DNA of 64,000 nt from Eunapius fragilis (lineage: Eukaryota > Porifera > Demospongiae > Spongillida > Spongillidae). How positions within the stretch are numbered: position 1 is the stretch's first letter; every line of letters begins with the position of its first letter. The position numbers and the translations under genes were made by a program. The notes under the pieces were generated by a model. That model saw only the letters and a list, made by a program, of their open reading frames with translations, ran no database searches and was not told the DNA's origin. Location: assembly GCA_963681505.1 (NCBI GenBank), contig OY811989.1, forward strand, positions 4,430,736 through 4,494,735, given 5' to 3'. Positions 6,403 to 64,000 of the stretch are shown piece by piece.

Positions 6403-6532
6403 GACTGATGTCATTTTCAGCCCCTACTACTAGCTTCCTCATAAGGATTAGTACTCCACATTAGAGATGTATGGAAAATTGCTTTTTAATTTTAATAATG
6501 ATTTTTCATCACTATTCTTCTTGTTGCTCTGA

Positions 6533-6803
6533 AACAAGATATAAAAAACATTCTCTTTGAGAAAGTTGGTGGTACATAGGATTTGAAGGCAATGGGATGT
6601 AAAAGGAAGGGAACAAGAGATCAATGATGATACTTAAAATTTAGCAATGTAAAATATATGAGCTATACAAAGTACTAGTGCTAAAAACAGAATCTTAAAT
6701 TTTACGTATCATCATTGGTTCCTAGTTCCCTTCATGTTTACATCCCATTGCCTTCAAATCCTCTGTACCAACTTTCTCAGAGGTTTTTAAATATCTTGTT
6801 ACA
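6533..6803. repeat. Foldback MITE, family 1 copy a
   Basis: The two halves are inverted copies. AACAAGATAT opens it and ATATCTTGTT closes it. Inside, GATTTGAAGGCAATGGGATG on the left is matched by CATCCCATTGCCTTCAAATC on the right. About 270 bp with arms of over 100 bp and a short AT-rich centre. The same family recurs at 16,185-16,435. Confidence 0.8.
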
Positions 6804-6969
6804 TGACGCATTGCAATCTTGTTAAATGTGAGCTCTTTGTCACAACGAAATAAGAACCACCTATCAGCAGTGATAAAAAGTTATAATGTGCCATACTTCA
6901 AGATACCACATTATTGCACATTTAATTACAATACCAGGGGGGTGGGGTGAAAAGACAACAGACAACAGC

Positions 6970-7743: not shown

Positions 7744-8203
7744 TTCCTCACTAGTATAATACAGAGGGGGATGCAGTAATTAAAGCAGTGAGGTTTGCAT
7801 ATGGGCAGTGTGGATACAACATACATCCTTGATTAAGGTGACAGGATACCCTCCTGGATATTGAAAAAAAATCATACTAGCTTGTAGCCTGAGAGAATCT
7901 TAGAGAACCGTATCATTTTGACAGTTATTAAATGAGCAGTAAAAATAGTACAAATATTCTAAGAATTAAACTTTAGTTTGTTGAAAACTGTAGTGATTAA
8001 AAATCCCCAAATTAGGAGGATAAATATGAAATAATATCTTCTTTTGTTTGGTGCATTCGTTTCGAAACGTAGCAGTAGGTTTTGTGCCAAAGCTTATACT
8101 AACCATCATTTCAGGGTGAACTAATTGGGCTACTCATGGATTACTCATGCTGGGCATTCCAGAACAGCTATTTTATCGTGAATACATGTTCTTCATTACT
8201 TAA
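7744..8203. other. Intergenic, upstream flank of the zinc-finger gene
   Basis: The first about 100 bases match the 5' flank of the other zinc-finger copies. The rest is AT-rich with no recognised feature. Confidence 0.4.
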
Positions 8204-22300: not shown

Positions 22301-25300
22301 TGCAGTATGACATGTGGGGCGTGACCCCCTCAGACCTGTGGGACTGGGCAAAGCTTAAAGCAGACATTGCGAAGTAAGCCCCTCCCCCTTCCTGCTGCTT
22401 TGCTATCAGCATTGTGTGTGTATTTTCAAATACTGAAAATAATAAGTGATTGATTATGCTAATAGAAGCCCACCCCACCCACTGTTATTTGATGTTTTCT
22501 AACTGCCTTTCTCAGGTATGGGGTGCGCAACAGCCTATTGGTGGCTCCCATGCCAACAGCCTCCACTGCCCAGATCCTGGGCAACAACGAGTCCATTGAG
22601 CCATACACCAGCAACATATACACACGAAGGGTCTTATCTGGGGAGTTCCAGGTGTGAGGGTGTGTGTGTGGGGGGGGGGGGGGGGGAGCATGTGTTCTAA
22701 AAGGCTGTGTGCAACTTTTTCTGTTCCCATGAGCTCGTGGGGTTTGTTGGCCACTTCTTCTTTGATACAATGCCTCTTTGTAACTGTTTAACCTTAAATT
22801 GTAGCAGGGTTCGTACAAAAGTATTGAAAAGGCATAAATGCAATTAAAAAGGCATTAAATCTGGTGTATTTATTGATAAAGCATTAAAATCCATTAAAAA
22901 GGCATTGAATTTTGTACTTTATCTTTTAACCCTCCCTGCCTCACCCCCAAAACACGAGAAAACCTGAATGTGTAGCGTCCCTGGGTGTATAGCTTCATGT
23001 ACATTGTAACATACTACATGCACGTGCTGCTTCAATTGAGGCCTGGGGATGAGGTAATGTAATGGAAGTGTACAAGCTATTTTAAGGCAGTTAATATTGT
23101 GGTCTGATGTCCATTTGTATGTACATGTACATGTATTTAAAAGTATGGTTTTTACATTATAAAGGCATTAAAAAGGTCTTATTTTGACCACATGAATATG
23201 TGTACAAACCCTTCAGGGACACTGCAGGCCAAAAGTCTGCTTAAGCCAGGTACACATTCTGTTGTGTACCTGGCTATGAACAGAGTGTAATGATGATATG
23301 TAAGAACGCCCGGCTTGACTATCTCGAGACCTGATGTGGGCGGTTGTTCTTAGCCACCAAACATACACGTTTTACAACAACGAACTAACTCATAATCACG
23401 TGCACTAACTAGTATATTACAATTCTCCCTTTTTAGAAGTTCAGATTCTGACATAGTCGTTGTATCGTTTAGGCTCTCTTACAGCTCTTCTACTTCTTGT
23501 CCTGTATTCAACTCCAGAACCATCACTTGTGACATTCATGTGCCCTTGCAGTAGTGACTCGTCATTTGGTCGAAATACTTCACAACGCTGGATCTTGCTA
23601 GTGGACACTGGTGGGTGGAAGTTGCCGAGGAAGACCAGCCGAAGACTGCTTTCACCACACCGGAAGGACTATTCCAATTTAAAGTCATGCCGTTTGGGCT
23701 GTGCAATGCGCCTGCCACCTTCTAGCGGTTAATGGACAGAGTTCTAAGCGGGTTAAAATGGTCCAGCTGCCTGGTGTATTTTGGTGATATCATCGTGGTA
23801 GGGACATCCTTTGCAGACCACCTCTCCAATATTGGTGGCATTCTTGCACGACTCCAGGGGGTGGAGCTGAAGTTGAAACCAGGGAAGTGCCATCTTTGCC
23901 TGGAGAGTGTTGCTTTTCTTGGGCACATTGTCTCATCGCAGGGAATTACCACCGACCTGAGCAAAACGGGTGCAGTTGCAAAATGGCCTATCCCACAGTC
24001 AAGACGAGAAGTGCAGAAGTTCCTAGGACTCGCAACAACTACAGAAGATTTGTGAAGAATTTAGCATCCATTGCAAAGCCGCTGCAGCGACTTACGGAGA
24101 ATAACAGTAATTTTGACTGGAGTGTAGAGTGTCAGATTGCGTTTGATGAGTTGCATGCATGCTTGATCTCTTTCGTATCCAGACTACAGTCATCGATTAG
24201 TTCTGGACACCGATGCCAGTGTGGAGCTGTGCTGTCACAAATAAGAATGGCTCTGAAGTGGTTGTTGCATATGCCAGTCGCTCTCTAAGTTGACTAAAAC
24301 AGCGATACTGCGTAACCCGGAAGGAACTGTTGGCAGTTGTGGAATTTGTGCAGCATTTCCGGCAGTATCAGAGTTCACCCTGAGGACCGATCATGGCTCG
24401 CTAGTGTGGGTCCGGAATTTCAAGGAGCCAGAAGGACAGCTTGCCCGCTGGTTGGAGAAATTGGAAGAGTACACGTTCACAGGCGGGGCAACCTGCATAG
24501 CAATGCTGATGCTATGTCTCGAATTCCTTGCAGACAGTGTGGAAGAGAGACCCATACGGAGGATATCAATGTTGGGATCCTCATGTCCCACCCTTTAACA
24601 CATTCACCAGACAACATGGCACAACAGTAACTTGAGGATGACTGCATTAAACCCGTATATCTTGCTGTCAAGAGTGGGAATTCTCCCTCTCCTGATGCAG
24701 TAAGAACATGGGGTCGCGAAAGCCGTCTCCTGTTTCAACAATGGAAATCGCTCTTAATTAGGGAAGGTGTGCTGTGGAGAAGAAAACTAGGTGGTAACGA
24801 GAATGAATTGCAGCTAGTACTACCTGCTAAATTTCATTCGGACGTCCTGCGATGCCTACACGAAGGAGCACTTTCTGCTCATCTCGGTGAAGAGAAAATG
24901 CTAATGCTGGGCAAGTTGAAGGAGCGGTTTTATTGGCCCGGCTGTGCTGATGCAGTGAAGGACTGGTGTGCAACATGCGTTACTTGTTGCACAAGAAAAT
25001 CAGCTGCCCCAAAGAAAAGAACAGGTTTGCAGGCCATTAGCGCTGGATATCCCCTACAGGTTGTGAGTGTGGATATAATGGGTCCGCTACCCGAAACAGA
25101 TGAGGGAAGCAAGTATGTACTGGTAGCAGTCGACTTTTTACCAGGTGGGTTGATGTATACGGCATCCACAACCAAGAAGTGACAACGATGGCTAGGAAGT
25201 TCGTAGATGAGATTTTCACCTCCTAAACAGCTTGCATAGTGACCAGGGTGGGCAGTTCGAATCTGAACTTGTGAAGGAAGACTCGCATGTCACCCTACCA

Positions 25301-28300
25301 TCCACAAGGCAAAACGGGATGGTGGAAAGGTTCAATAGAACCCTGCTAGATATGCTGTTGACCACAGTCGGAAGCCACCCTTGAAGCTGGGAGCATAATA
25401 TACGCAAGGTCTGTCTGGCCTATAATTCCAGCGTCCACTCTTCGACCGGCTACAGTCCCTTCTTCCTCATGTTCGGGCGACAAGTGAAGCTGCCAGTCGA
25501 CTTGATGTACGGCACTGGCGAGGTGGCGGAAGTTGCAGTCCCCATGTACGTGCAAAGACTGAAGGATACGCTCCGAGAGGCATATGCACTTGTGAGAGAC
25601 AAGTGCGCCACAGAACACAGACAGCAAAAGGGAATATACGACGAGAAAATTAATGGAAAATCCCTTCAATAGTGGAGACCTTGTATGTTTACATTCCCCA
25701 GCAGTCCTCAGGGGTCAGTCCTGGAAACTTCACCGACCGTGGAAAGGGCCGTTCAAAGTGGAGGAGCAAATAGGAGACAGCACCTATAAAGTCAAAGGAT
25801 TACGAAGTAAAAAATACCAGGTAATGCACTTTGACAGATTGAAACCATTCCCGTCCAATGCTAGGACAGAGGATAGAGAAGACACACGACGAGATATTGA
25901 TGTTCGGCCGGCGTATGCACCTTTGGAGAAACTTAGGGAGCACATACAGCTGCTAGAGGTAAATGCAACCCCTCTAGAGGAAGTCCAACCAATGCAACAA
26001 CCTGGTGTGGTAGCTCCAGAGTGTGCACCTATCCCTTTGGGGATGCCAGCGCAACCGATGTTAGAACCTGGTGGGGTGGTTCCTGATCATGAGCCCGCGC
26101 CAATACCATTGGGAATGCCGGGACCTGAAGCACCAAAACATCGGTATCCATCTCGGGCACGAAGACCGACTGACTTCGATGGAGAATACGTCACTCACTG
26201 GGAATGAGGGGTTAGCAGTGCAACGCATGCGCAATCCCTTACTCCCAGGTGATCGACCAAAGGATATATAGATAGCTCTATTATTGCATTAGTCAGACTG
26301 TGTGTGTGCCTATTTACTGCTATTAGCGTTAGCTGCAACACCTCTTACATGTGCATTCGCCAACTATTTTCAAAGGATCTCCTGTGTACCCAAATAGTTT
26401 CACTCTCGACTTTGCCAATGTAGGTTTACCATTGCATCAAGTTGTACTCACTCAGTGGTCACCTGAGAGCAGTGTCTATCTTGAACTTGATGATTCTACC
26501 TTGAACTCCAAAAGATGCAAAACATTCATTGACACCCGTTTCTACAGCTTGCTTTTTCTTCACAGCTCCTACCACAAACTCATCGGCATCACCATGCTCT
26601 TCTTCCTCTTCTTTTTGAGTTAATGCTGATACTTCTTTGCAGTATCTGGCAAAATGGTTAAGTTTGTGGCAATTATTACAGCACTTGCCAAAAGCAGGGT
26701 ACTTGTCTCTCTTGTGTTGATGTCCACAATGTCGACAGTTAGAGCCCGCATGTTGTGTTGTGACCGGCTTGGCAACACCTGTGTCCTCATTTGGCAGTGT
26801 GCCACGAGACTGTTGATTGATGCTTTGGATGAGGATTTTGCACCAATGACAAATCTGCAGATGCTTCCTCTATGATACATTTCAGCTGTTTTTTTGATTG
26901 CTCTTCGGCCCGACATAGATCTATAGCTTTGTCTAAGGTGAGGTCCCGCTCCCTTTAATAGCCTTTCTTTGATCTTTTCTGAGAAAACACCAGAAACAAT
27001 TCTGTCCCTGATAAGTTCCTCTTCAAGCGCTCCAAAAGCACAATTCCTAGTCATCAATTTCAATGCAGTCACGTACTGATCTATGGATTCCCCCTTGATG
27101 CTCTGTCCTTGTGTTAAATTGGTACTGCTCATCAGTTACATTATGTTTCGGTCTGCAATACCCTTCGAAATTTTTGAATAGGATACTTATCTTGTTCTTC
27201 TCTTGTTCTGAGATGTTGAAGGTGTTGTAGACGTCTCTCCCTGCTGGGCCTATGATATGGAGGAAAGCACTACACTGTTCCGCTGAGGGTAAGAAAATAG
27301 TTCCATTGATTGACGCCATTTTCGCCATGCTTCTGCTACAGAGGTTCCGTCACTCGATCCGAAGTCTATCTCAGGCAGTGGCTTTATATGCTCCATTTCA
27401 GATATCTCACTTCTGACACCATGTAAGAACGCCCGGCTTGACTATCTCGAGACCTGATGTCGGCGGTCGTTCTTAGACACGTTTTACAACAACGAACTAA
27501 CTCATAATCACGTGCACTAACTAGTATATTACACAGAGAAGTATGACTATTTCATGAAGGGAGAAACTTCACCTTATATTGACATATGTAGCTGCCACAC
27601 CAAAAAATTTTTTGCAATTCGTGTGTAGTATGAAGTTGAAGCAAAATTCGAACACAACAGATGTGTGTATCCATCCATCTCGGTATATGAAATCCAGGGG
27701 TGGAAGTAAGAATTGACAATTCTTCAGAACAATTTTCTGAGCATTGCCAAATCCTGGTCGTTATTTCCACCCCTGTGAAACTATAAAAGCTTCAATAACA
27801 GACATAGATGTACTGAGGATCGGCGGCCATTTTTTGCCTGTTTTTCATTCAGCACGCCTTATTGCCAACGTACAAACAAAAAAAACTTAAACCGTTCCTA
27901 TGGAGATAAATATGCTTTAACTACTTACCCTAATACCTGTCATCATACGAATCCTTAAATACAAAGGACGACAGTATGGACAGCATTCAAGCAACACCTG
28001 CGTGTAAGGATAAGAACACATTTTTTGCCCCAAGTAGGCACGTGGTTGATCTAACATTAACGTCTGTGGAGTTATCTTTTAACACTTTGCCCCACCCTAA
28101 AGTGTGTTGAGCTGCCTTTGTTAGTCACATGATGTAATGTACACATTTTGTCATGTTGTATGGGATCGAGGCAGTGAAAAGGGACCTAGTGCGTATTTTT
28201 TCAAGTTTTCAAATTATTTCATATTCCAACAGAAACCTGTGGCCTACAAATTCTTTCTTACGCACTGGGAATTAGTCCGTCCATCATGGAGTTACAGTGG

Positions 28301-29182
28301 CCTGAATTTTTAATTACACATACATTTTAATTGCTCGTGTAAACTTTGATGCTCCATCCTGGAAAATTTTATAATATGCGCTAGGTACCTTTTCGCTGAC
28401 TCAAACTTTAAACTGTTCCAACAACGTTCCTTATATGTTGCTTTCAAAAAGTTAACCACCATGTGTGGGGGCTATGCTCCCTTCTCCACCTGTGTGTGTG
28501 TGTAGGTTGTGAACCATCACCTGTTGAAGGACCTCACTGATAAAGGCTTGTGGGATGAAGACCTGAAACAGAAGCTCATAGCACATAACGGATCAGTGCA
28601 GGTACAAATGCATCACCTGTTCATCTTTAATTATCGGCCAACCTCATTATCGTATTGATCTCCTTGCACCACTCAGAATATCGACGAGATTCCGGATGAT
28701 ATCAAAGGACTTTACAAAACTGTGTGGGAGGTGTCTCAGAAGACCCTTATCAACATGGCCGCCGACCGGGGTGCCTACATTGACCAGAGCCAGTCCTTCA
28801 ACGTCCACATTGCTGAGCCCAACTTTGGCAAGCTAACCAGCATGCACTTCTATGCCTGGAAGAAGGTCAGTACTTGTTAATGGGGGGGGGGGGGGGGTGC
28901 CTTATTGTGGCAAACTATTGTGTGCACATCTTAATCCCTTCCACCCATCCTCCCTCCTCCTCCGTCCTCCAGGGGTTGAAGACTGGTATGTACTACCTTC
29001 GCTCGCGACCTGCAGCCAATGCTATTCAGTTCACGGTGGATCAGAGGGTGGTGATTGAAGCCAAGAAGAAGCAAGGAGGGTCTGGCCCTGGTGCTGAAGA
29101 TGCAGAGAAAACTGCTAAAGACTACACTGACATGGCTTGCTCCCTGCAGAACCGGGAAGGCTGTATCTCCTGCAGTGCCTGA
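17118..29182 (+). CDS. RRM1: Ribonucleoside-diphosphate reductase large subunit (class I, RRM1), 21 exons
   Basis: Reduces ribonucleoside diphosphates to deoxy forms together with the small subunit RRM2, the rate-limiting step of dNTP supply, in the cytosol. Exons: 17118-17145, 17203-17291, 17360-17537, 17645-17745, 17802-17861, 18583-18622, 18681-18757, 18836-18958, 19350-19454, 19575-19658, 19732-19824, 20405-20553, 20636-20837, 21460-21552, 21612-21668, 21929-22150, 22297-22373, 22516-22651, 28506-28601, 28677-28865, 28973-29182. All joins keep frame and give 802 residues, close to the vertebrate protein. Seen: N-terminal ATP cone ([16 protein letters not shown]), active-site Cys in QLSSCFLL (about residue 219), NLCTEIVEY with catalytic Asn/Cys/Glu, its partner Cys in VAVCNLAS, radical-path tyrosines in GMYYLR, and the C-terminal redox pair CISC just before the stop. 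Introns range from 57 bp (intron 1) to 5.9 kb (intron 18, carrying LTR elements). Confidence 0.97.
17587..17641. repeat. (GT)n microsatellite, RRM1 intron 3
   Basis: Pure GT repeat ending directly at the exon 4 acceptor (GTGTGCAG). Confidence 0.95.
19283..19347. repeat. (CA)n microsatellite, RRM1 intron 8
   Basis: Pure CA repeat running into the exon 9 acceptor (CACACAG). Confidence 0.95.
19855..20360. repeat. 27-bp minisatellite, RRM1 intron 11
   Basis: Units such as CACATCCACCCCTCCTCATC plus CACTTCT, repeated with small variants. Pyrimidine-rich on the coding strand. Confidence 0.9.
20880..21450. repeat. About 26-bp minisatellite, RRM1 intron 13
   Basis: Units like TTTCCTCCTCCCCATCCCTC repeated some 20 times. 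Pyrimidine-only on the coding strand and reaching nearly to the exon 14 acceptor. Open frames through it are repeat artefacts. Confidence 0.9.
21690..21915. repeat. Imperfect CT/CA-rich minisatellite, RRM1 intron 15
   Basis: Repeats of ACCCCTTATCCCCTCTCAC, shorter and less regular than the array in intron 13. Confidence 0.8.
22805..23213. repeat. hAT-like MITE in RRM1 intron 18
   Basis: The ends CAGGGTTCGTACA and TGTACAAACCCTT are inverted matches. The interior is AT-rich with repeated AAAAGGCATT. No coding capacity. Confidence 0.65.
23299..23421 (-). repeat. 3' LTR (left) of the minus-strand element
   Basis: 123 bp. Matches the LTR at 27422-27533 with an 11-bp length difference around the CCACCAAACAT stretch and a few substitutions. 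Confidence 0.85.
23570..26207 (+). pseudogene. Ty3/Gypsy-type pol remnant (RT-RNase H-integrase), opposite strand
   Basis: In order on the plus strand: RT from the motif A region ([11 protein letters not shown]), [15 protein letters not shown], then YFGDI where the family has Y-x-DD, an RNase H segment and an integrase with an HHCC-type zinc domain (HLGEEKML.., CATCVTCC near 24,970) followed by [14 protein letters not shown]. The end has a GPF-type module (WKGPFKVEE) and the tail up to a stop at 26207. The 5' part of RT and all of gag are missing. Frameshifts and stops occur near 23,725, 24,060, 24,290, 25,180 and 25,670. Its tail differs from that of the surrounding minus-strand element, so it is a second element and not an inverted piece of the first. 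Confidence 0.8.
26208..26344 (+). other. Possible 3' LTR remnant of the plus-strand element
   Basis: Follows the pol stop and a GAGGGG purine stretch. Contains GGATATATAGATAG (TATA-like) and ends GCAACACCTCTTACA. No matching 5' copy was found, so the call is tentative. Confidence 0.35.
26345..27328 (-). pseudogene. Gag and start of protease of the minus-strand LTR element
   Basis: From [19 protein letters not shown] at 27328 the frame shows a Ty3-type capsid region ([14 protein letters not shown]; after a frameshift [14 protein letters not shown] and [14 protein letters not shown]). It is followed by a zinc-knuckle region ([20 protein letters not shown]) and a possible protease start (KFKIDT). 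Frameshifts separate the parts and the rest of the polyprotein is lost. Confidence 0.75.
27422..27533 (-). repeat. 5' LTR (right) of the minus-strand element
   Basis: 112 bp. Bounded inside by the tRNA-type primer-binding site and outside by CAGAG. Confidence 0.85.
27695..27775. repeat. 81-bp MITE, RRM1 intron 18
   Basis: The ends CAGGGGTGGAAGTAA and TTATTTCCACCCCTG form an almost perfect inverted repeat. Typical size and termini of a small hAT-like element. Confidence 0.75.
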
Positions 29183-29322
29183 GGGGGAGGGCCTCCTTCC
29201 CTCACTTCCCCTACACACACACACACACACGTTGTGCACTTTTTAGTGTTAACACTGCACACAAGGCAGATCCACTTCAGACTGGTTTGGCTCCTGTACA
29301 GCTGTATTACATAAGCCGCTCT

Positions 29323-29328
29323 ATTAAA
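29323..29328 (+). terminator. Candidate poly(A) signal of RRM1
   Basis: ATTAAA about 140 bases after the RRM1 stop, followed by T-rich sequence. Confidence 0.5.
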
Positions 29329-29643
29329 ATCATTAATTACATATATTTTAGGGTGCTTGATTGCCTGGTGGAGGTTTTTATCATCTTGTAGCACCCACCA
29401 CCTGTATTTTTTTTTTTTTTGGGGGGGGGGGGGGGGGAGAGCTTACTCTTGCAAGCCAGTTTGGGGTGAAGAGTTGATGCATCGCGTAGTTCACAAAGCT
29501 ACCTGACAAAGATAATGGTCAAGCAGTTGGACCAAAAAAGCTGAAGGAACAAAGGGGGTACTGAGACAAAAAATGCACTTGCACCTATATTGTCACAGAC
29601 ATCTAAATATATGACATATAAACAGTGGAGTCAGGTACTTTGG

Positions 29644-31950
<2,307 letters not shown>

Positions 31951-36635: not shown

Positions 36636-37280
36636 ATGTGCAATTATACAGGGGATGGGTGGAGTGAAGGTGGGATGTGGAAGGAGATTAGTGAAGGATA
36701 GTGGCTGGGGATGGAGGAAAGGCCCAGGTAATAACAGTAACCATGACAGAAGAGGAAGGGAAAGGACTTGTCATTACATCCAATAGTACCTTAATCTCTT
36801 TGAACACCAGGATACCCAAGGCTGAGCTGATAAAACCAGGACCCTGTGTTAACAAGCGGGCAAGGAACATGGGTGGGGGGCACTTATTAGAAACAGACAC
36901 TCACAGCGCTGCACAACGGCATGCTAACTCCAAGTGAGAGGTGCTGGTTTGCAACAAAAAAACCTGCTATGGGAGGAGAGGGAGAAAGAAAAGAAGGTAA
37001 AGTAACAGGTGTGTGAGGTGTGGTCACTGCCATATGATCTCACTCATTGCAATGCCCCACATGATGCCTGACAAGAGGCCAGGGATAATGACTTTGGGGT
37101 AGACCTTGGGCTTGTTCCTATTGAAGGCTGAGTAGCCTATAAACCACAGCGTACTGACCAGCCGAAGAGGTAGTCTAGATCTGTGTGAGGGAGGAGGGGG
37201 GGGGAGGGAGGGAAAGGAGGAAAGAGGGAAGAAATAACTTGAAAACCAAAAGAGGCTCATAACAGAGTGGGGAGGGAGGA

Positions 37281-37460
37281 GGGGAAGGACTGACCATTGC
37301 AGAAGTGGGGAGTGGGGAGGGGAAGGACTGACCATTGCAGGAGTGGGGAGGGAGGAGGGGAAGGACTGACCATTGCAGGAGTGGGGAGTGGGGAGGGGAA
37401 GGACTGACCATTGCAGGAGTGGGGAGGGAGGAGGGGAAGGACTGACCATTGCAGGAGTGG
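37281..37460. repeat. 38-bp minisatellite spanning the TMEM144-B exon 8 donor
   Basis: Five units. On the gene strand each carries CACTCCTGCAATGGTCAGTC: the last codons of exon 8 (..HSCN) plus its GT donor. The first copy on the gene strand is the real exon end at 37447; the others lie in intron 8. Confidence 0.85.
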
Positions 37461-37555
37461 TAGGTATCGTCACATAGCTTCATCAACTGAATAGGAAGAA
37501 ATGAGAAGCCATAGAGGGATCCCACGATGCAGGCGAGAGCAAAGCCCCTGTGGGA

Positions 37556-37940
37556 ATGATGGGTGGGGGTGAGGGTGGGGTGGGTGGGGTGGGGGTGAGG
37601 GTGGGGTGGGGTGAGGGTGGGGTGGGGTGGGGTGGGGTGGGGTGGGGGTGAGGGTGGGGTGGGGTGGGGGTGAGGGTGGGGTGGGGTGGGGGTGAGGGTG
37701 GGGTGGGGGTGAGGGTGGGGTGGGGGTGAGGGTGGGGTGGGGTGAGGGTGGGTGGGGTGGGGTGAGGGTGGGTGGGGTGGGGTGAGGGTGAGGTGGGATG
37801 GGGTGAGGGTGGGGTGGGATGAGTAGGGGTGAGGGTGGATGGGGTGAGGGATGAGGTGAAGGTGGGTGGGGTGGGGGTGAGGGTGGGGTGAGGGTGGGGT
37901 GAGGGTGGGGTGAGGGTGAGGGTGGGGTGGCGAGTGAGGG
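37556..37940. repeat. GGGTG-based minisatellite in TMEM144-B intron 7
   Basis: GGGGTGAGGGTGGGGTGG units. The same motif fills a NUP98 intron at 62,262-62,722. Pyrimidine-rich on the gene strand. Confidence 0.9.
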
Positions 37941-38554
37941 GTGGGGTGAGGAGAAATGGAGGGAAGAAGGTAGTGGGACCAATTTGAGTACGACTGTGCT
38001 ACGTACAGTATTCTCCGAGGCCACACTCTGAGTTTATCAACCCAAGAATGGTCATCATCATTATCCTCACTCCCACCCCCAAGACCAACGGATTGGCTGA
38101 AGACAAGCTTTTCACTGGTGTCTGGTGCGGTGGTGTTGAGCTGTAGAGGTAGGTGGGCAGAGGGTTAAAAAATAAACAATGAAGGCAGACATATAAAAGA
38201 AAATAATTACAAATCTAAATAAGTGATGAACCATGCAGCATCAGCTGAAGGTAATCAAGAGTGGGAGGGTGGTGGGAGGGTGATGGGAGGGTGATGGGAG
38301 GAGTATGCTTTTCTTTTTAAAATGACAACTCAGTATGGTGTTATCCAATTCAATGGCATAACATCAACATGCAGCACACATCCCTTCAGGTCAAACATTG
38401 CAATTTGAGATAACAGTGATAAGTTTCATGTTTCACAATGCACCCAAATTCACGGCATGCCATTTGAAATAACCAGAGTACGTAAATGGTCACAGTTTAC
38501 CACGGCTATGTGCTAATGACCTGTTATGGTTGACACTGGCGGTCATTGTTATTG

Positions 38555-38750
38555 ACAGGAGAGCAGGGAGGGTGGAGGGGTGAGGAGGGCAAGGGTGGAG
38601 GGGTGAGAAGGGTGAGGGTGGAAGGGTGAGAAGGGTGAGGGTGGAGGGGTGAGAAGGGTGAGGGTGGAGGGTGAGGGTAGAGGAGTGAGAAGAAGGGCAA
38701 GGGTGGAGGGTGCAAAGGGTGAGGGTGGAGCAGTGTGAAGATGGAGGGGT
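38555..38750. repeat. GGGTGAGGGTGGAGGGGTGAG array, TMEM144-B intron 6 side
   Basis: Roughly 20-bp units just downstream, on the gene strand, of exon 6. A partial copy of this intron is found at 42,905-43,012. Confidence 0.8.
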
Positions 38751-38998
38751 GGTGGATAAAGGCACACCTTCTTGCTCACAAGACGCTCTTGGGTACTGTC
38801 CACTGTGGTACCATGTGACTGAGCTCCAATGGTCACCTTTCCCTCAGTTTTTATGAAGGCCAGGATAACAGTACTGTTAGAGAAAACATCAGTGCAATAT
38901 GAATTAACAGCTGCAGGAGTGCATTGTTCCCCATCCATGTGAGCTATTATGAAAAGTGGAAACACAGTGCAATTTCCAAGGCTGCAAGTTGTAGAGCA

Positions 38999-39115
38999 GA
39001 ATCTGTGTGTAGTGTGGTGTGGTGAGGGTGTAGTGTGGTGTAGGTGTGGTGTGGTGTAGTATGGGTGTGTGGTGTGGTGTAGTGTGGGTGTGGTGCAGGT
39101 GTGGTGTTTTCCATA
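38999..39115. repeat. GTGGTGTAGTGTGGGT short array, TMEM144-B intron 5
   Basis: Units of GTGTGGTGTAG and GTGTGGTG. A second small array (GGAGCCCAGATATGGA, three to four units) lies at 39,535-39,590. Confidence 0.75.
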
Positions 39116-39664
39116 GCAATGTTTGTAGGGGGGAAGGGGGGCACATGGCATGCATACATGAAATGGCATTGAAGGATCGGGTGGCAACGCCCTAAGGATG
39201 GGTGAAATGCCAATCAATTTGGCACTATCAGTTATGATACACACCTGCCTGTCAATCAAACAACAATACAGACATGTGTCTTTTCCATGTTTTAAATAGA
39301 ACACTTTTTAAAAAATTATTTCTTCTCATCCCCTTAAAAAGTAATAATAATAAAAAACATACTGGCAAGAGTTTTTTTTTTGGTTAAAACTAACACCTCG
39401 ATATACTGCAGTGCATTGTGGGAAGTGAGCAGAGACAGTGACTCAAGGAGCGACGAGATGTACGGCAGTGTGAACAGCAGTGTGGTGCCGAAAACAAGCT
39501 AAGCATAGGGATGGCAAGACGGGTGTAATCGGAGCCCAGATATGGAGCCCAGATATGGAGCCCAGATTTGGAGCCCAGATTTGGAGAGTGGGTGAAAAAT
39601 GGTCCCTGTGACCCCAAACCCTTGACCCCAAGATCCCAATTTCAAGCACACCTAGTTAATATGT

Positions 39665-40275
39665 TTACTTAGGATGAGGTGGTGATGATGAGGTAGTGAA
39701 GTGTGGAGATGTGATGAGGTGGTGATGATGAGGTGTGGAAGTGTGAGGATTTTTGAGGTGGTGGTGATGAGGTAGTGGGTGTGGGGATGTGATGAGGTAG
39801 TGAAGTGTGGAGATGTGATGAGTGGTGATGATGAGGTGTGGAAGTCTGAGGATTTTTGAGGTGGTAGTGATTAGGTAGTGGGTGTGGGATGTGATGAGGT
39901 AGTGAAGTGTAGAGATGTGATGAGGTGGTGGTGAAGAGGTAGTGGAAATGTGGAGATGTGATGAGGTGGTGGAAGTGTGGAGATGTGATGTGGTGGTGAT
40001 GAGGTAGTGGAAATGTGGGGATGTGATGAGGTGGTGATGATGAGGTAGTGGAAATGTGATGAGGGGTGTGATGAGGTAGTTAGAAGTGTGAGGTGGTGGT
40101 GATGAGGTGGTGGTGATGAGAGGTAGTTGGAAGTGTGAGGTGATGGTGATGAGGTAGTGAAGTGTGGGGATGTGATGAGGTGGTGGTGATGAGGTAGTGG
40201 AAGTGTGGGGGTGCGATGAGGTGGTGATGATGATGAGGTAGTGGAAGTGTGGGGATGTGATGAGGTGGTGATGAT
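39665..40275. repeat. GATGAGGTGGTGATGATGAG minisatellite, TMEM144-B intron 5
   Basis: Irregular units combining GATGAGGTAGTG, AAGTGTGGAGATGT and GGTGATGAT. About 600 bp, ending about 100 bp from exon 5. Confidence 0.85.
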
Positions 40276-40681
40276 GATGGAGTGTGTACCTGTTAATAGA
40301 GTAGACAAGCATGTGATGGGGCATTAGAACAGTTTACATTTTAATATCATCAGTTCATCACATCCATCATTACCTTGCCACCACAAACAGTATCCCACCA
40401 TAGTTGAGCCAGCGACACTCAATCTGGTTTACCTGGTCCAGTATAAACCTTTTGGCCGGTCAAAACAATTGGTTGTAAGGGCAGCAGGCATGTGACGCGT
40501 GGGTGAGGAGTGTGAGGTGTGTGAGGCAGGCAAGGCTTAAGTGTAAACACGACACAGCTAACAGTCAGCCTCACATTGCTGTTATCCATCCTCCAAGGAG
40601 GTTAGTGGTCCCCCACACTGTCAGCCCCATGGTGAGCCCTATCATCTTGATGATAGAGACTGTCAAGATGTTGCCTTTTGA

Positions 40682-40714
<33 letters not shown>
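40682..40714. repeat. Poly-G tract
   Basis: More than 30 consecutive G, starting a few bases outside the TMEM144-B exon 4 acceptor. A second run lies at 40,925-40,946 next to exon 3. Confidence 0.9.
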
Positions 40715-40715
<1 letters not shown>

Positions 40716-41567
40716 AGACAAGTGGGTGGGTGGAGTCAAGTGCATGGCTCAGTGTACAGGACCTCTATACCAGTGGTCCACAAGAGGCCACCTCCCAACA
40801 TGGAGGGTAAGAACATGGGAGGTTGGTCCCTGATCATGTTCACTACCAGTCCCACCAACCATATCCCTATGCAGAGCACCCACTGAAAGAAAAACCCTGG
40901 GGTGGTACAGAGAAGGTGTGTGTGGGGGGGGGGGGGGGGGGGGGGGAAAGGGGGAGAGAGTGGAGTACAAGAGAGGGGAGAGGGATAGAAGAGTAGGAAG
41001 CAAGGAGAAGAATGCAAAGGGGGTCAGAGAATGCTTGCAATCCTTTGGACTCACGCCTACCATCTCCCGTGTCGAACTTCTTGACCGGGATAAAGTTGCT
41101 TCCGAAGAACAGGATAGCAACAGCAGCTCCAAAGTAGCCTTTCCACGGTTCGCTTCCAGGGTCGCAAAGCTTCCCGCAATGGAAATCACTGCGCGATCCG
41201 CCAGCTGTTTGAACACCTTTACGGAAACGTTACAACTTATAAATACCGGTATGTTTTCTCCCGGTTTAATACGAAGGGTCACCTTCGGAGGTTGTATAGC
41301 AGATCCCTTCTCGCGGGGTTCCCGGTGGGAAGAGTGCGAGCGCCCTTCCTGCCGAACAGAGGATAAGCAGGAGCGCTCCAACTGAGCCAAACATCCCAAA
41401 AACCATTTATATCTACCGCATTACAAAAATAATAAAACTAAAAATCGAACGCGATATTATCAAAAGTTGACGTCGCGTGCAATTAAAAAAAAAACGAATG
41501 CATAGGGGCACTGTCTAATTTCCAGTGCGTAAGAAAGAAGTTGTAGAAGACATGTAGGTGTCTCTTA

Positions 41568-52076: not shown

Positions 52077-54666
52077 TTAAAGTGAATCAAGAGACTCCGA
52101 GGCGTCAGAGATGCTTCTGATGTTGGTGAGCAAGAGGGGACACGACACAACGCCAGCCCCCGCCCGACATGTCTTCATTGGGGCCACCATCTTCCAGGTG
52201 TCTGTCGCAGGTGAGTACATCTCAGCCGTGTTCAAATAAGACGTCCCGTCGTGACCTCCCACGGCAAACATGTGGCCGCCCAGTGCAGCCAGCCCCACCC
52301 CCCCTCTGCACACGTGCATGGATCGAACCAGCGTCCACGTGTTGGTCTGGGGATCGTACCTGTGGGGGAAGACAAAGGAGAGGGCATTATGGAGGAGGGA
52401 TCATAACTGTAATTTAAAAAAAAAAAAGAGCCATTCATTTAAAATTCAAAGGGTGCCCCTCAAAACTAAATTATTGCAACAGCCAAGGATCCCTTGGTAG
52501 CAATTGATTAGTCTACCACATTGACTGTGAGAAGCCACTGGAGGTGTGAGAGAAACATTATCCAACTATAGGAGGTCTGTTATCCCACACACCTGGACAC
52601 ACCACACACACACACAGCTCCAATTATTCTTTAATCTCTCACATTCCACCTCGTACTCTCCACACTATTCCCATACCCCTTCACACTATCCCCACACCAC
52701 CTCGTACCCTCCACACTATCCTCACTCCACCTTGTACCTCTCCACCTCATACCCTCCACACTATCCTCACACTCCACCTTGTACCGTCCACACTATCCCC
52801 ACACTCCACCTTGTACCTCTCCACACTATCCTCACACTCCACCTTGTACTTCTCCACACTCCACCCTGTACCTCTCCACACTATCACCACACTCCACCTC
52901 ATACCTCTCCACACTATCCAGCGGCGAAGCATCGTCAAATCCCCCCACTGCATACAGGTACCCATTAAGGGCAGCCAGGCCCACCCCTGCACGTCTCTTG
53001 GCCATAGGTGTGACCTCCATCCACTTGTTGGTGTGTGGGTCATAGCGTTCCATCGTCTGGAGAGAAGTGCTCCCATCATTGCCCCCGCATGCGTACAGGT
53101 ATCTGCCCAGAGTAGCCACACCCACACCACCTCGCGAGGTACGCAGGGGGGATATCTCCACCCACTCATTGGACTCTGGGTCGTAGCGTTCCACTGTTCT
53201 GTAGCAGTTAACGTCATCAAGGCCACCTGTTATATGTGCGTGTGTGTGTGGATGTGTGTATGTGTGTGTGTGTGTGTGTGTAGGTGGGACTGTGGTTATG
53301 CAAGCTTAGCAGGAGAGAGACAGGAGGACTAGTGGTCAACTCCTTTACATGCAACATCCCTCAGCTCTCTCACAAGCACAAACACACACACATACACACA
53401 CATACACACACACAGGGGGGGTGGGGGCACAAGCGCTTGTGTACCTATGGCGTACATGGGACCCCCCAGGGTGCCCACGGCTATCCCCCTCCTCAGGGTC
53501 TTCATGGGCTGCACGTACTCCCACTTTCCAACCTTGGGGTCGTAGCACTCCACAGAGTTTAGGTGCTGGTTCCCATCGTGCCCGCCCACAGCGTACAGCT
53601 TCCCGCCCAAGCAGGCCACTCCCACGTGCCTCCTCCTGGAACGTAGCTCCGGTCCCTCGTACCACGCATTGGCGAGGAAGTCGAAGCACTCGACACTGTT
53701 GAACGGTTCCCCTACGGCACCCCGCCCACCAATGGCAAAGAGGACACCCACAGTGGACTTCCGCGGTTGGAAGCAGGTTCGGGGGTTGTGCCAGTACTGA
53801 TCGGGCATTAAATGGAAATTTTTGGCCTCGTCCAAGAGGTCCCTGCATTCGAGGCTTTTCTTGACGTACTGGTGGGTCTCCACCTCCGTGGCGAGGAAGG
53901 AGGGGGACAGAAGGGGCAGTCGCACGGCCCTGAGGAGGCTCGGGAGGTGTTCCTTGCGGGGCTCCGGGTCGTGTTCGAGCCACGCGAGCACGGCCCGAAA
54001 GACGTCCTCTTCGGATCGCACGTTGACGTCGCCACTGTCGATGAGGGCGGCAAGTTCGTCTCCCGCGATTCCCGGAAACTCCTCGCTCTTGACGGCGTCC
54101 ATGAAGTGGTTCCTGAAGTAGCAAGAGGCCTTCTCCACTAGCTTTGCGCAACCATGGGTACGCGCGAAGCTCCGTATACCGAGGCAGTTGGACGGGTGAA
54201 GCTGGCCTATCAGAAACTTGCCGCACGCCTCCCTGACCGCGGGAAAGTCGAAGAGCGATGCTGCCGTGAGCAGGGACTGGACGTTGGCAACCGTTATCTC
54301 CAGCCTGGAAGTGTAGGCGAACTCAACCAGGAGCTTCATGGCCGCGTACTCGACGTCCTTGAGAAGTACCACGTCTTGCCGGGACTCGCGCATGTCCCCC
54401 GCGAACATTGAATAGAAGTAGTGACTGCTCGAGGCCAGGACGAGCTTGTGGGCGGGGAGGGTCTTCCCCTCCACCTCCAACACCACGTCGCACAGCTTTC
54501 CGTCCCGTCGCATCTGCTGGATGAGTTCGAACGCTTCAGAGGAGTGCTCCTTGGAGAGAAACTGGAGGACACCCTTGCTGGAGGACTCCTTGTTGATATT
54601 GAGTTCGCCTGTGGTGGTCTCCTTCTCCGGCAAAGTAGGAGCAAACGAGGTTCCGTTTGCGTCCAT
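52077..54666 (-). CDS. KLHL8: Kelch-like protein 8 (BTB-BACK-Kelch), 3 exons
   Basis: KLHL proteins are substrate adaptors of CUL3 ubiquitin ligases. Exons (minus): 53445-54666, 52905-53226, 52077-52359; 608 residues versus about 620 in vertebrates. BTB at about 57-165 (GKLCDVVLEVEGKTLPAHKL), BACK at about 170-300 (HPSNCLGIRSFARTHG, KKSLECRDLLDEAKNFHL), then six Kelch blades (RRRHVGVACLGGKLYAVGG, NDGSTSLQTMERYDPHTNKW, FAVGGHDGTSYLNTAEMY). CRDLLDEA.NYHL-type and GGRG..GEPF.S.EC-type segments and the CRAGAGV end agree with KLHL8 over other KLHLs. The start at 54666 faces the TRMT9B-like start at 54726. Intron 2 carries a minisatellite derived from the end of exon 2. Confidence 0.92.
52600..52905. 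repeat. Minisatellite built on the KLHL8 exon 2 donor
   Basis: On the gene strand the exon ends GATAGTGTGGAGAG followed by GTATGAGG. In the first 250 bases of intron 2, GATAGTGTGGAGAGGTAC or a close variant comes back about seven times, separated by AAGGTGGAGTGTG. Confidence 0.8.
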
Positions 54667-57260: not shown

Positions 57261-59527
57261 TTATGTACTGGTTAGTTCTGCGATATACGCATGGACCAAG
57301 TGTCGATATTCACTGATGGAGTAGTCCTCTGGCATCGGAAGACGTGCACAGCACTGGGCCATGTCCCTTATAGTACTGAAGGATGTGCCGCTGTTTGTTA
57401 GGGAGCACTACAGAGGGTGGTGTGGGGTGGAGATAGTTGGCGAGGTAGATGGTGGATAGCTGTGGTACCCCCTTACCTTTAGTTCAACCACAGTTCTGAT
57501 GTATGCGGCTACTCTCTTGGACATCTCAGCCTGACAAAGCCTAGATGAGGAGAGTCGTGGTGTGATAGATAACAAGCATATACACAATTACACACACAAA
57601 TTACACATGCACACACAATTACACACACAATTATACATGCACACAATTACACGCACAACTACACACACACAATTACACATGCACACACACACACCACAAT
57701 TACACACACAAATTACACATGCACACAATTACACACACAACTACACACACAATTACACACACACACACACACACACACACAATTACACATGCACACACAC
57801 AATTACACATGCACACACATACTTACACTTCCTTGGCTGAAGGTGTGGGAACTTGTTGGATACGATGGCAGAGGTCAACTAACTTCACCAAAAGCTCCTC
57901 TATCAAGTGTAATGTGATCTAAACCACACACCCAGTCAAGATAAAAGGAATGATGAAAGGCATATGATGCTTACTCTGTCAGGTAATGACTTCATTTCCT
58001 CTGAGAGATGAAGATATTCCAGGTACACCTGCAAAGATGAGGGTATGGTCAGAAATAAAGTGGGAGCATTTGAATAGGGGTGTGTAGGTTGCCCATAGCA
58101 AAAATGACATAGCATGTACTAAACATATGCAGGGGGGGGGGCAATATCCTCACCCCCCGCCCCCATTTCACAAAAGGAGCCCCGCCCCCATTTTACCTAA
58201 CAACTTGTTAATTAATATTTTGGCTTCGAACTTGAAGGCCATATATAGCCTCTATTCATTGTTATTGTAAAAAGCAAAAAGTAATAATTACTAATGAAAT
58301 AATTAGGATCCCCTGAGCTCATTCCAATACACATGTACCTCTGCTTTGATGAGGCTAACTTACCTGTCCTTTGACCTCCCAGCCTTCTATCAACTCAACA
58401 TGTTCAGGGATTGACAGCTGCTGTAGATAATCCAGGACTTGTTCTGTTTCATCTGTTATACACACACTGTTGATGAGAACTCACCAATCCCCCTCCCCTC
58501 CCACCCTCCTCCCAATGTACATTATTATCACTGTACATATGTAATCTGCTTTAGCTGAAGTATTGGAACATGTCAGCTAGCACATCATGTTCGTACCAAC
58601 CAGTGACCAGCAGTGGGAACTGTTATGATGGATGAGCACTAGGGAAGCATCAATGTGACCCCCCTTATGATGGATGGGCACTAGGGAAGCATCAATGTGA
58701 CCCCCTTATGATGGATGGGCACTAGGGAAGCATCAATGTGACCCCCTTATGATGGATGGGCACTAGGGAAGCATCAATGTGACCCCCTTATGATGGATGG
58801 GCACTAGGGAAGCATCAATGTGACCCCCTTATGATGGATGGGCACTAGGGCAACATCTATGTGACCCCCTTATGATGGATGGGCACTAGGGAAGCATCAA
58901 TGTGACCCCCTTATGATGGATGGGCACTAGGGAAGCATCAATGTGACCCCCTTATGATGGATGGGCACTAGGGCAACATCTATGTGACCCCCTTATGATG
59001 GATGGGCACTAGGGAAGCATCAATGTGACCCCCTTATGATGGATGGGCACTAGGGAAGCATCAATGTGACCCCCTTATGATGGATGGGCACTAGGGCAAC
59101 ATCTATGTGACCCCCTTATGATGGATGGGCACTAGGGAAGCATCAATGTGACCCCCTTATGATGGATGGGCACTAGGGAAGCATCAATGTGACCCCCTTA
59201 TGATGGATGGGCACTAGGGAAGCATCAATGTGACCCCCTTATGATGGATGGGCACTAGGGAAGCATCAATGTGACCCCCTTATGATGGATGGGCACTAGG
59301 GAAGCATCAATGTGACCCCCTTATGATGGATGGGCACTAGGGCAACATCTATGTGACCCCTTACAGTACAACTGGCTGCAATTCATTCAATACAATTCAA
59401 TTCAATGCGAATGAAGATAGACCAGGTTTTCAACCAGATTTTTTTCTGGTCGTGCAATGGCAGGTATTTCCCCACAATAACCCCTCTCACCTCATGCTAC
59501 AACTGCACACACAACGGACGAGGCTTT

Positions 59528-59558
<31 letters not shown>

Positions 59559-59952
59559 ATACCCCTTTCTACATATGCCATTGATGATGTAATCAGCCAC
59601 ACACCATTGATGATGTAATCAGCCACACACCATTGATGATGTAATCAGCCACACCATTGATGATGTAATCAGCCACACACCATTGATGATGTAATCAGCC
59701 ACACACCATTGATGATGTAATCAGCCACATACCATTGATGATGTAATCAGCCACAAGGTGCTCCATGATAACACTATGAGCTGCGTCCCACTGTTCTGCC
59801 CTTATAAGGTGTGACGCCTCTACGTCATATAGCTTCTCATAGTGTGCTCGCTGAGCCTATGGGAGGGAGGGGAGGGGAGGAGGGGGATGTCAGCAATGGT
59901 GATGGACAATAATGTGAGACAGTGCTGGTATGTACAATACTTATAACTGCAT

Positions 59953-59994
<42 letters not shown>

Positions 59995-62900
59995 TACATG
60001 ATATACACGCACAAGTACATGTACACATATACACATACATATATGAGTATACATATATATACAACTACACATACACACATATACACATACACATAGGAAC
60101 ACACACACACACACCACATACCCCATACCCACCTTAGCTCGGTACACCCACTGTTCAGGGACTTTGAGCCTCTCGATGACAAAACCCTCTGCCTCACTGA
60201 GATCCTCCTCCGCTGATGTCTGGCGCCCCAGGACCCCGGCCACTGCCTCCTCCCTCTGCACACGGTCCCTCAGGTGTAGCAACACAAGCACTGCCCACTG
60301 CCACAGGCCCAATGACTCCAGCTGGGCTGCATAGCCGCAGTGAAGGGAACCCAGAGGGGCGGGGTCAAGATGTCTGTAGCCTAGAGCACTAAGGGTACAC
60401 CACAAGTGCCAGCTGCAGAGGTAGGGGGAGGGGAGGAGGAGGGGAGAGGAGGAGAGGAAGGAGGGGAGGAGAAGGGGAGGAGGAGGAGGGAGGAGGAGGA
60501 GGAGGAGAAGGAGGAGGAGAAGAGGAGGAGGAGGGGAGAGGAATATATGTAGATAAAAATTTCCCAACACCTTATCATGTTACAGATATGTCTTTCATGC
60601 TAACCAACCAGACAGGTTCAATCCAATGCCTCGCACAGAAGTCTATAAATTTATATGCAGCAACTGAATTTCATGAAGGTGGAATTCTTTTACAGATGTA
60701 TCAGATGAACCCCATCCATCAAATATCACGCCAGTGCAACTCTTTCATCAGGCCCCAATGGGATCACCCTTAAGGGAACACCCTATTGTAACGTCAGTAT
60801 GCATTCCATGGACATCCAAAAAGACCCATAGGCTCTCTCTCTCACTATCTTTCTGGAGCACCACTCAAACCACAATCACACACATGTACTGTGTTCATTT
60901 AGTGTGCAGAACAGTCTTATTTATTACGCAAGTCCTGCACATGTAAACTGACGTGCCAGATGACTGCATTGTATGCCACTCCACAGAACTTCCCAGTGGA
61001 AACAAAACCAACCTAAGCCTGAAGTCTAGGAGATATGGAGTGGAGGCAGCTGGGTCAATGGTGGCATCTAAATTGTAGTCCCGCGAACAGTACAGCCGAA
61101 GCAGATGATAGCATGTGTCCAGAACTGGTTCACCCGTGACAGTAACTGGTCCTGAGGCATACGCAGGCCATGGGGGTGGGGCATAGGGTTCTTGTGCCTC
61201 AGGGGTCTGCTGGTGTGAGGAGGGATGAGGAGAGGGAAGAGGGTAAAGATGGAGGAGGGGAGGGATGAAGGTAAAGATGGAGGAGGGGAGAGATGAAGGC
61301 AAAGATGGAGGAGGGGAGGGATGAAGGCAAAGATGGAGGAGGGGAGGGATGAAGGCAAAGATGGAGGAGGGGAGGGATGAAGGCAAAGATGGAGGAGGGG
61401 AGAGATGAGGGCAAAGATGGAGGAGGGGAGAGATGAAGGCAAAGATGGAGGAGGGGAGAGATGAGGGCAAAGATGGAGAAGGGGAGGGATGAAGGCAAAG
61501 ATGGAGGAGGGGAGGGATGAAGGCAAAGATGGAGGAGGGGAGGGATGAAGGCAAAGATGGAGGAGGGGAGGGATGAGGGGTAAAGATGGAGGAGGGGAGG
61601 GATGAAGGCAAAGATGGAGGAGGGGAGGGATGAAGGCAAAGATGGAGGAGGGGAGGGATGAAGGCAAAGATGGAGGAGGGGAGAGATGAAGGCAAAGATG
61701 GAGGAGGGGAGGGATGAAGGCAAAGATGGAGGAGGGGAGGGATGAAGGCAAAGATGGAGGAGGGGAGGGATGAAGGCAAAGATGGAGGAGGGGAGGGATG
61801 AAGGCAAAGATGGAGGAGGGGAGGGATGAGGGGTAAAGATGGAGGAGGGGAGGGATGAAGGCAAAGATGGAGGAGGGGAGAGATGAGGGCAAAGATGGAG
61901 GAGGGGAGGAGGGAGGGATGGGGTGGGGAGGGATGAGGGCAAGGGTGATGTTCCATTGCACAATAAGTCGACAAAAAAATATCTCCCAAGGTTACCTCAA
62001 ATGCTTGTGTGTATCTTCGAGTCACCTCCCTGATGGACGTAAAGGTGTCACTCTCATACCACAGATGGATAGCAAACACCCTCTTCCAGTCCAGTTCCTC
62101 GCAGACATTGAAGTGTAAAGCATTCCAGTACATCTTCCCTGCCAAAAGGCAGTAGACCTTCAGACGCTCCTCACTGATATACTTGTGGTTCTAGGGTGAG
62201 GCAGGTAAGAAAGGGGTTAATGTGTACACGTACAAGTGAGAAAATTAATGGAGTTGTGGGTTGGGTTGGGGTGAGGGTGGGGGTGAGGGTGGGGTGAGGG
62301 TGGGGTGAGGGTGGGGTGGGGTGGGGTTGGGGTGAGGGTGGGGGTGAGGGTGGGGTGAGGGTGGGGTGAGGGTGAGGTGGGGGTGAGGGTGGGGTGGGGT
62401 GGGGTGGGGTGAGGGTGGGGTGGGGATGAGGGTGGGGTGGGGTGAGGGTGGGGTGGGGGTGAGGGTGGGGTGGGGGTGAGGGTGGGGTGGGGTGAGGGTG
62501 AGGGTGGGGTGGGGGTGAGGGTGGGGTGGGGGTGAGGATGGGGTGGGGTGGGGGTGAGGGTGGGGTGGGGTGGGGGTGAGGGTGGGGTGAGGGTGGGGTG
62601 GGGTGGGGGTGAGGGTGGGGTGGGGTGGGGGTGAGGGTGGGGTGGGGTGGGGTGGGGTGGGGTGGGGTGGGGTGGGGTGGGGTGGGGTGGGGTGGGGTGG
62701 GGTGGGGTGGGGTGGGGTGGAGTAGTGGACTTAAAATATTCTTGTCACATGCATATCCTGAACAGTATGAAATAGCACTGGAGAAAGTGTGACTTGGGGG
62801 GGGGAGGTGGGGGAGAGGGGAGGGAGTAGGGAGAGGGAAGGGAGTAGGGAGAGGGAGGGGAAGAGGATACGTGTCTTACTGCATTTTCCCACACTGACAG

Positions 62901-63110
62901 CTGATTGGAGAGGTACTCCCGGGACGAAGCAGACTGGGCAAACAGGAGTAGTGCCAAGCGATGGTCCCTATGCTTGTGACAGAGTGCCTGTGCAGCTGAC
63001 AGCTGCTGCCCTGTGAGCAGGCTGAACAGGGACCTCATGTAGCCTTCCTCCTGCTGTGGTGGAAAGGTGAGGGGGAAAGAGGTGATGGCAAGGAGAATGG
63101 TCATGGACAG

Positions 63111-63168
<58 letters not shown>

Positions 63169-64000
63169 AAGGTTCAGTAGGTCACTCAACATTCTCATTT
63201 GCGGCACGAAGGTCCCGTTCCACAGCAGGACTGTTGGCTTGCATCAGCCACTTGGAGAGAGCACGCCTTCTTGCCTGCTGGTGGTTGTACGACTCCAAAT
63301 CTACACACAGGAAAGAAATTACTTTTAAACATGTGAAATATGAACAATCAGGAAGATGGCAGAAGAGGAAAGGGGGAGGAGCATGAATATTAACTAAGGA
63401 GTGAGCACTAATTAAAGGAAGAGAGTGGGCACGAACTAACACCTAAAGCTGAATGTAGCATCATTGATGGAAGTAGTTAAATAAACATTGTACTGCTGCA
63501 AATGTTATATCACTATGGGAAGGAAATGTGGAACATAATGTATTTTTAACGTTTGTGCAACAATATTGTATCAGGAATAATTATGTAAGAAATACATCCA
63601 TCAACAACATCAAAACATACAAACTGATCAATGCTTTAATACTTGCACAAAATTTAATATGATTAAAAGCCTTTAGTGTATAATATAATTTTAATTCAAA
63701 TAACTGAATCAAGATTAAATGATCTCAAGTTAATTGTCACAAAATTGATTATCGCAAAAATATCGCAGACAGGTACATATGAACATACGCTATATCACTA
63801 CACACAGATAGCCACATGTAATATCTAACGTGAGCTACATTTGTATCACTCCAGCACCCTAACCGGCAAGGGTTTGGTCCGGGTAAGCAATGCTCGCATC
63901 CAGCATTAGTTCTCACAAGGTGCTTACCTGGGTCACAATTCTCCAGATTTCCCCAAAGAGCTTCTGCTAGTTCAAACACAAGCTGCGCCTGTCCTTGTGT
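57261..64000 (-). CDS. NUP98: NUP98 (NUP96 portion), C-terminal 12 exons, partial
   Basis: The NUP98-NUP96 precursor supplies two nuclear-pore proteins; the window holds the alpha-helical carboxy part of NUP96, which belongs to the Y-complex scaffold. Exons (minus): 63928->64000, 63191-63300, 62880-63050, 61996-62190, 61013-61206, 60133-60412, 59733-59856, 58364-58452, 57975-58028, 57827-57918, 57477-57540, 57261-57407. All phases agree. Recognisable blocks: ARRRALSKWLM, HRDHRLALLLFAQSAS, EELDWKRVFAIHLWYES, LSWHLWCTLSALGY, SQLESLGLWQWAV-type helix (AAQLESLGLWQWAVLVLLH), LKVPEQWVYRAKAQRAHYE, EHLVADYIIN and ARLPMPEDYSISEYRHLV just before the stop. The N-terminal GLFG repeats and autoproteolysis site lie beyond the window. 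Introns contain four minisatellites, one of them repeating a 5' splice site. Confidence 0.92.
57580..57825. repeat. ACACAATTACACATGC microsatellite, NUP98 intron
   Basis: Imperfect CA repeats with interspersed AATTAC and CATGC, ending at the donor of exon 57827-57918. Confidence 0.85.
58625..59360. repeat. 41-bp minisatellite, about 18 units, NUP98 intron
   Basis: Unit TTATGATGGATGGGCACTAG plus GGAAGCATCAATGTGACCCCC. A variant with GGCAACATCTATG recurs every third to fourth unit, showing higher-order duplication. Confidence 0.95.
59577..59757. repeat. 26-bp minisatellite spanning a NUP98 exon donor
   Basis: Seven units of CATTGATGATGTAATCAGCC plus ACACAC. On the gene strand each reads GTGGCTGATTACATCATCAATG followed by GT in every unit: the last codons VADYIIN of exon 59733-59856 with its donor. 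Spacing is 26 bp, with one 24-bp step. Confidence 0.9.
60425..60540. repeat. GGA-rich microsatellite next to a NUP98 acceptor
   Basis: Imperfect GGAGGA repeat, which on the gene strand forms the pyrimidine tract before exon 60133-60412. Confidence 0.9.
61215..61925. repeat. 27-bp minisatellite, about 26 units, NUP98 intron
   Basis: Unit GATGGAGGAGGGGAGGGATG plus AAGGCAA. The period is divisible by three, so long frames on the minus strand are artefacts. Confidence 0.95.
62262..62722. repeat. GGGTG-based minisatellite, NUP98 intron
   Basis: Blocks of GTGAGGGTGGGGTGGGG, ending in pure GGGGT repeats at 62,636-62,720. Same motif as TMEM144-B intron 7. Confidence 0.95.
63113..63168. repeat. (GT)n microsatellite, NUP98 intron
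   Basis: Pure GT, about 56 bp, in the intron between exons 62880-63050 and 63191-63300. Confidence 0.95.

Follow-up and report, generated by a model that had tools for sequence, protein, structure and literature searches.

A tandem repeat across the exon 26 donor of NUP98-96

The window, i.e. the whole stretch of 64,000 nt analysed here, holds together with the adjoining 10 kb (L033) a NUP98-96 gene on the minus strand. Its coding model (window 57261-64000 plus L033) has 31 exons that together read as a single open frame, 1,980 codons long and closed by a stop. Pieces of the model match the Pfam families Nup96 at E 8e-74 and, at E 3e-45, Nucleoporin2 (the NUP98-96 autopeptidase). These matches, with an alignment to NUP96 chains from the PDB, bear out the gene name proposed by an earlier sequence-only reading of this DNA. 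The glycine-rich region of NUP98 (L033 7340-9091, minus) contains coding minisatellites whose unit lengths of 15, 24 and 30 bp are each divisible by three.

Several other genes were recognised. In the region 22700-28800 of the window (plus strand) the frame of RRM1, judged by eye, seems to pick up again near 28.9 kb, past retroelement-like frames. Two TMEM144-like genes lie side by side on the minus strand (window 36800-41200 and 29300-31700). In an ARHGEF10-like gene (window 48184, plus) intron 10 was modelled with a GC donor, AAG/GCAAGG. The window further contains a kelch gene and, at 4641-7779 (minus), C2H2 zinc-finger genes with tandem finger units of 84 bp. Features discussed below are listed in Table 1.

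Table 1. Position and basis of the features under discussion; coordinates are those of the window unless L033 is given
Feature	Coordinates	Strand	Basis or remark
NUP98-96 exon 26, 124 nt, last 20 nt are copy 0	59733..59856	minus	open frame, peptide alignment
NUP98-96 exon 27, directly after exon 26 in the model, phase 1	58364..58452	minus	31-exon model
Minisatellite across the donor, seven copies of a 26-bp unit (24 bp in one)	59578-59755	minus	TRF, copy list, unique in assembly
Exonic donor ATG/GTATGT	59731..59732	minus	only one of seven giving the full frame with exon 27
Extra donors GTGTGT at 59706, 59680, 59630, 59604; GTGTGG at 59654	59603..59706	minus	
Last copy, GC in place of GT	59577..59578	minus	
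TGA, in frame, second extra unit, 35 nt past exonic donor	59695..59697	minus	
Minisatellite 41 bp x 18 in the same NUP98-96 intron 26, no exon contact	58623..59360	minus	TRF
NUP98-96 intron 10 array, 56-bp units, ~10 copies, last copy GC	L033 5530-6092	minus	TRF
Kelch (KLHL-type) gene, intron 2 donor-spanning array	52635-52919	minus	TRF, junction word
TMEM144-like copy 2, donor-spanning array, 38 bp x 5	37265..37460	minus	TRF, junction word

Structure and descent of the exon 26 array

The 20 bases that end exon 26, GGCTGATTACATCATCAATG, stand seven times head to tail, once in the exon and six times in the intron according to the copy listing, each unit being composed of the 20-nt exon end and some 6 nt of intron start. 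Successive copies are spaced by 26, 26, 26, 24, 26 and 26 bp, and TRF describes the array as 26 bp x 6.9 with 96% matches and a score of 335. The exon boundaries and the seven copies had been placed correctly in the sequence-only reading. Its wording that the same 26 bases, donor included, follow six more times holds for the six further copies but not for their length, as one unit has 24 bp, nor does each unit carry the same candidate donor as it had supposed: the 6-mers after successive copies read GTATGT, GTGTGT, GTGTGT, GTGTGG, GTGTGT, GTGTGT and GCATAT. The splice signal is hence kept in many but not all units, with GT in five of the six intronic copies and GC in the last.

The assembly that was searched comprises 219 Mb in 24 contigs. 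GGCTGATTACATCATCAATG has seven matches in these 218.9 Mb, every one at the exon 26 array, and its reversed control has none, so that its copy number is far above chance. The same assembly yielded at least 18 homeodomain matches, five of them within about 110 kb on C16, and no innexin match in a search that had no positive control. A low number of homeoboxes, some of them in a small cluster, would suit a demosponge and not amphioxus, and in this respect the genome looks sponge-like.

The Pfam Nup96 match stops at residue 393 of the model piece and the exon 26 peptide starts at residue 392, so the assignment of this exon relies on the open frame together with the PDB alignment. The exon 26 peptide aligned with NUP96 chains through its final IIN (best E 0.0011, six sequences at E up to 1), ..VADYIIN corresponding to ..ASDAIIN in the two best chains and to ..AADAVIN in two others among the matches shown. 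A genome search with the protein from exon 26 onward gave six matches, all inside the NUP98-96 gene. Since the alignment with NUP96 reaches the end of the exon, this end is old coding sequence and older than the array. Judged by these alignments the array is derived from the end of exon 26, and the proposal that the repeat is exon-derived agrees with homologous NUP96 chains sharing the exon end up to its last residues.

Coding consequences of the extra donors

The exonic donor joined to exon 27 gives the 1,980 codons of the model. The donor at +26, which had been predicted to shift the frame, does so and leads to a stop in exon 27, 86 nt past the exonic donor; the products of those at +52, +78, +102, +128 and +154 are truncated by a TGA 35 nt past it. 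Three extra units do add a multiple of three (+78), as the earlier reading calculated, and the 24-bp unit makes +102 one too. The TGA, however, lies in frame in the second extra unit, and these products are not open. This rules out frame-keeping NUP98 isoforms from +52 and beyond, and the suggestion that donor choice yields isoforms fails for NUP98, as each of the six extra donors cuts the protein short when joined to the modelled exon 27. That they act as silent decoys, the other half of that suggestion, is possible.

Alternative acceptors were tried for each donor, starting with AGs 30 nt beyond it and going on almost to the end of exon 27. Six of these keep the full-length frame with the exonic donor, the normal one included. 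Rescue of an extra donor was found for +26 only, by four AGs that all lie inside exon 27; none of the tried AGs gave a full-length frame with the other five.

Donor strength was scored with a matrix built from 77 GT donors of the region, the exonic donor of exon 26 included. This donor has the top score among the six GT donors of the array (8.01, 75th percentile), followed by the GTGTGT copies (6.88, 49th) and GTGTGG (6.07, 23rd). We do not read the weaker scores of the copies as selection, since a selected site, once copied, should give copies that drift to lower scores, and since, in the TMEM144-like array, first and copied donors have equal scores.

Donor-spanning arrays in the surrounding 74 kb

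Gene models covering the window and L033 contain 78 introns in 74 kb: 30 in NUP98-96, 17 in RRM1, 15 in the ARHGEF10-like gene, 14 in the TMEM144-like genes and two in the kelch gene. The 14 TMEM144-like introns come from two genes modelled in four pieces; the introns between the two pieces of each of these genes and the RRM1 introns after exon 18 lie outside the 78, and the C1 and C5 blocks and L034 enter no intron count. Two stops interrupt the last piece modelled for TMEM144-like copy 2; all other modelled frames are open. TRF arrays with periods of 10-150, simple repeats excluded, were merged into 51. These cover four of the 78 donors, namely those of NUP98 introns 10 and 26, kelch intron 2 and TMEM144-like copy 2, and none of the 78 acceptors in the 74 kb.

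A second test looked for a copy of the junction word in the same intron, with at least 8/10 exon and 4/6 intron letters identical and the GT or AG kept; one acceptor word was left out as simple. Copies were found at five of 78 donors (NUP98 14, 26 and 27, kelch 2, TMEM144-like copy 2) and at one of 78 acceptors (kelch 2), with an expectation, from words tried against other introns, of 0.13 for donors and acceptors each. NUP98 introns 14 and 27 have a single copy each and are weak cases. At a strict threshold (8/10 + 5/6) three donors remain against 0 expected (0/6006 cross pairs) and no acceptors against 0.03; at a loose one (7/10 + 4/6) there are six donors against 1.04 and three acceptors against 0.55.

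The array in NUP98 intron 10 repeats the exon end GGCCTRCAGCTTG with GTGGTGAGC; the 8/10 + 4/6 test missed it, since GTGAGC at the exon is replaced by GTGGTGAGC in the units. As in intron 26, its last copy has GC for GT. The extra donors tested in NUP98 introns 10, 14 and 27 are truncating. In kelch intron 2 the donors at +55, +88, +167 and +228 truncate as well, but the copy at +33 (GT at 52871, score 5.53 vs 8.00) gives a full-length frame that adds 11 residues in a kelch repeat. Because of this donor the isoform idea survives for such arrays in general, among which frame-keeping extra donors are conceivable. The neighbouring paralogue of TMEM144-like copy 2 has a matching exon end, a different intron start and no array. 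Compared with copy 1, the exon of copy 2 that follows the array lacks 19 nt, and the frame breaks.

Placed uniformly on the 74 kb, 51 arrays would on average cover 13.6 donors and 13.6 acceptors; with four donors observed, junction overlaps are thus depleted, as selection would make them. When placements could take in no more than 30 exon bases, the expectation was 0.87 for donors and 0.81 for acceptors; of 2,000 such exon-sparing runs, 0.95% reached four or more donors and 44% covered no acceptor. A donor excess, visible only under exon-sparing placement, is suggested, in one region, with small numbers and with the starting array itself as one of the cases. A wider scan of the window, 200 kb of C1 and 50 kb of C5 gave 57 candidate rows which, judged by eye, are mostly low-complexity, coding, or have no visible exon; the 200 kb of C1 contain few recognisable genes in the ORF list.

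Origin of the array and its relation to known systems

Tandem duplications of exon-intron boundaries are described, in the parts of PMC3087553 and PMC3902484 that bear on them, as mirages in amphioxus Adh3, the globins BflGb6 and BflGb9, PGBD5 and TnC. Splice signals are present there in many units and unit length ranges from 10 to 160 bp (PMC3087553, in the same parts); normal splicing, followed by RT-PCR, is reported as undisturbed and length as unstable (same parts of PMC3087553 and PMC3902484). The exon 26 array is alike: its tandem units of 24-26 bp span the boundary, one copy is the real exon end and many units carry the signal. By structural definition it is a mirage, in a new gene, and it is probably one in a new lineage; reports of mirages have so far come from cephalochordates. 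Amphioxus mirages, as far as these sources describe them, differ in duplicating both 5' and 3' boundaries, where TRF here finds four donors and no acceptor, and in being backed by RNA, the NUP98 array being known from genomic sequence. Variable tandem repeats with units of about 30 bp at exon-intron boundaries, a comparable kind of unit, are described for human paralogues in the relevant part of PMC2812944; that part concerns segmental duplications with novel introns and alternative transcripts, whereas the NUP98 region matched one place in the assembly only.

A human minisatellite with multiple donors in its units, resembling the NUP98 array in this respect, is reportedly the subject of Turri et al. 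1995, whose title has these donors used; the extra NUP98 donors, in contrast, truncate the protein.

In our view the array is most likely a minisatellite of the mirage type which arose by tandem duplication across the donor of NUP98-96 intron 26, the outermost donor being used and the copies being intronic passengers. It would have begun with one tandem duplication spanning this donor, perhaps at the TGT common to the exon (CTTGTGGC) and the intron (TATGT). Growth and homogenisation would have followed, with the exonic copy spared and left apart. As long as the outermost donor is used, a normal mRNA would result and all copies would fall inside the intron, which may be why the change was tolerated; the copies would have no function of their own. 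When equal donors compete, splicing often prefers the one nearest to its acceptor, and a choice of the outermost donor here would therefore need explaining.

The extra donors could instead be regulated decoys or poison sites: they would bind U1, or be spliced now and then into early-stop transcripts destined for degradation, the NUP98 level then depending on copy number. It suits this idea that five extra GT donors have ordinary strength (23rd to 49th percentile) and that their products would bear early stops, but the GT is lost in the last copy, there is no sign of regulation and unrelated genes carry similar arrays, which makes it unlikely. NUP98 isoforms by donor choice are highly improbable: +78 and +102 are divisible by three, +26 keeps the frame with the four unusual AGs and a comparable kelch donor stays open, yet +26 shifts the frame with the normal exon 27 and the in-frame TGA stops the rest.

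Tandem repeats are error-prone in assemblies, and the true locus might have fewer units or a single one. Against such an artefact, which we regard as very unlikely, speak the differences among the units (the 24-bp unit, GTATGT, GTGTGG, GC) and the other units of the similar arrays nearby. There is hardly any chance, finally, that the array is a step toward a new intron, as has been suggested both for mirages and for AG/GT duplications and as the model in the pertinent part of PMC3087553 would have it. To gain an intron from tandemly duplicated AG/GT sites requires a unit that supplies both, and AG is absent from the array unit even when it is read as a dimer, so no acceptor is brought by the array.

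Returning to the mirage-type duplication with passenger copies, a broader version of it is tentative and, we feel, somewhat doubtful. In this sponge-like genome minisatellites may be seeded repeatedly at donors and almost never at acceptors, since use of the outermost donor would make the duplication harmless. Such loci would be natural donor competitions in which the farthest site must win, and some copies, such as kelch +33, might be ready-made in-frame alternative exon ends. The equal donors of the TMEM144-like array and the full frame from kelch +33 indicate that copies are not always out of play.

Exon ends at donor-spanning arrays can be misplaced by gene callers. If RNA agrees, the seven near-identical exon ends of NUP98-96 test in a living gene how the spliceosome chooses the outermost donor, and minisatellites across splice junctions, with several cases in 74 kb, would be a by-product of genomes rich in minisatellites and no cephalochordate speciality. 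If the host is a sponge, mirages extend beyond cephalochordates.
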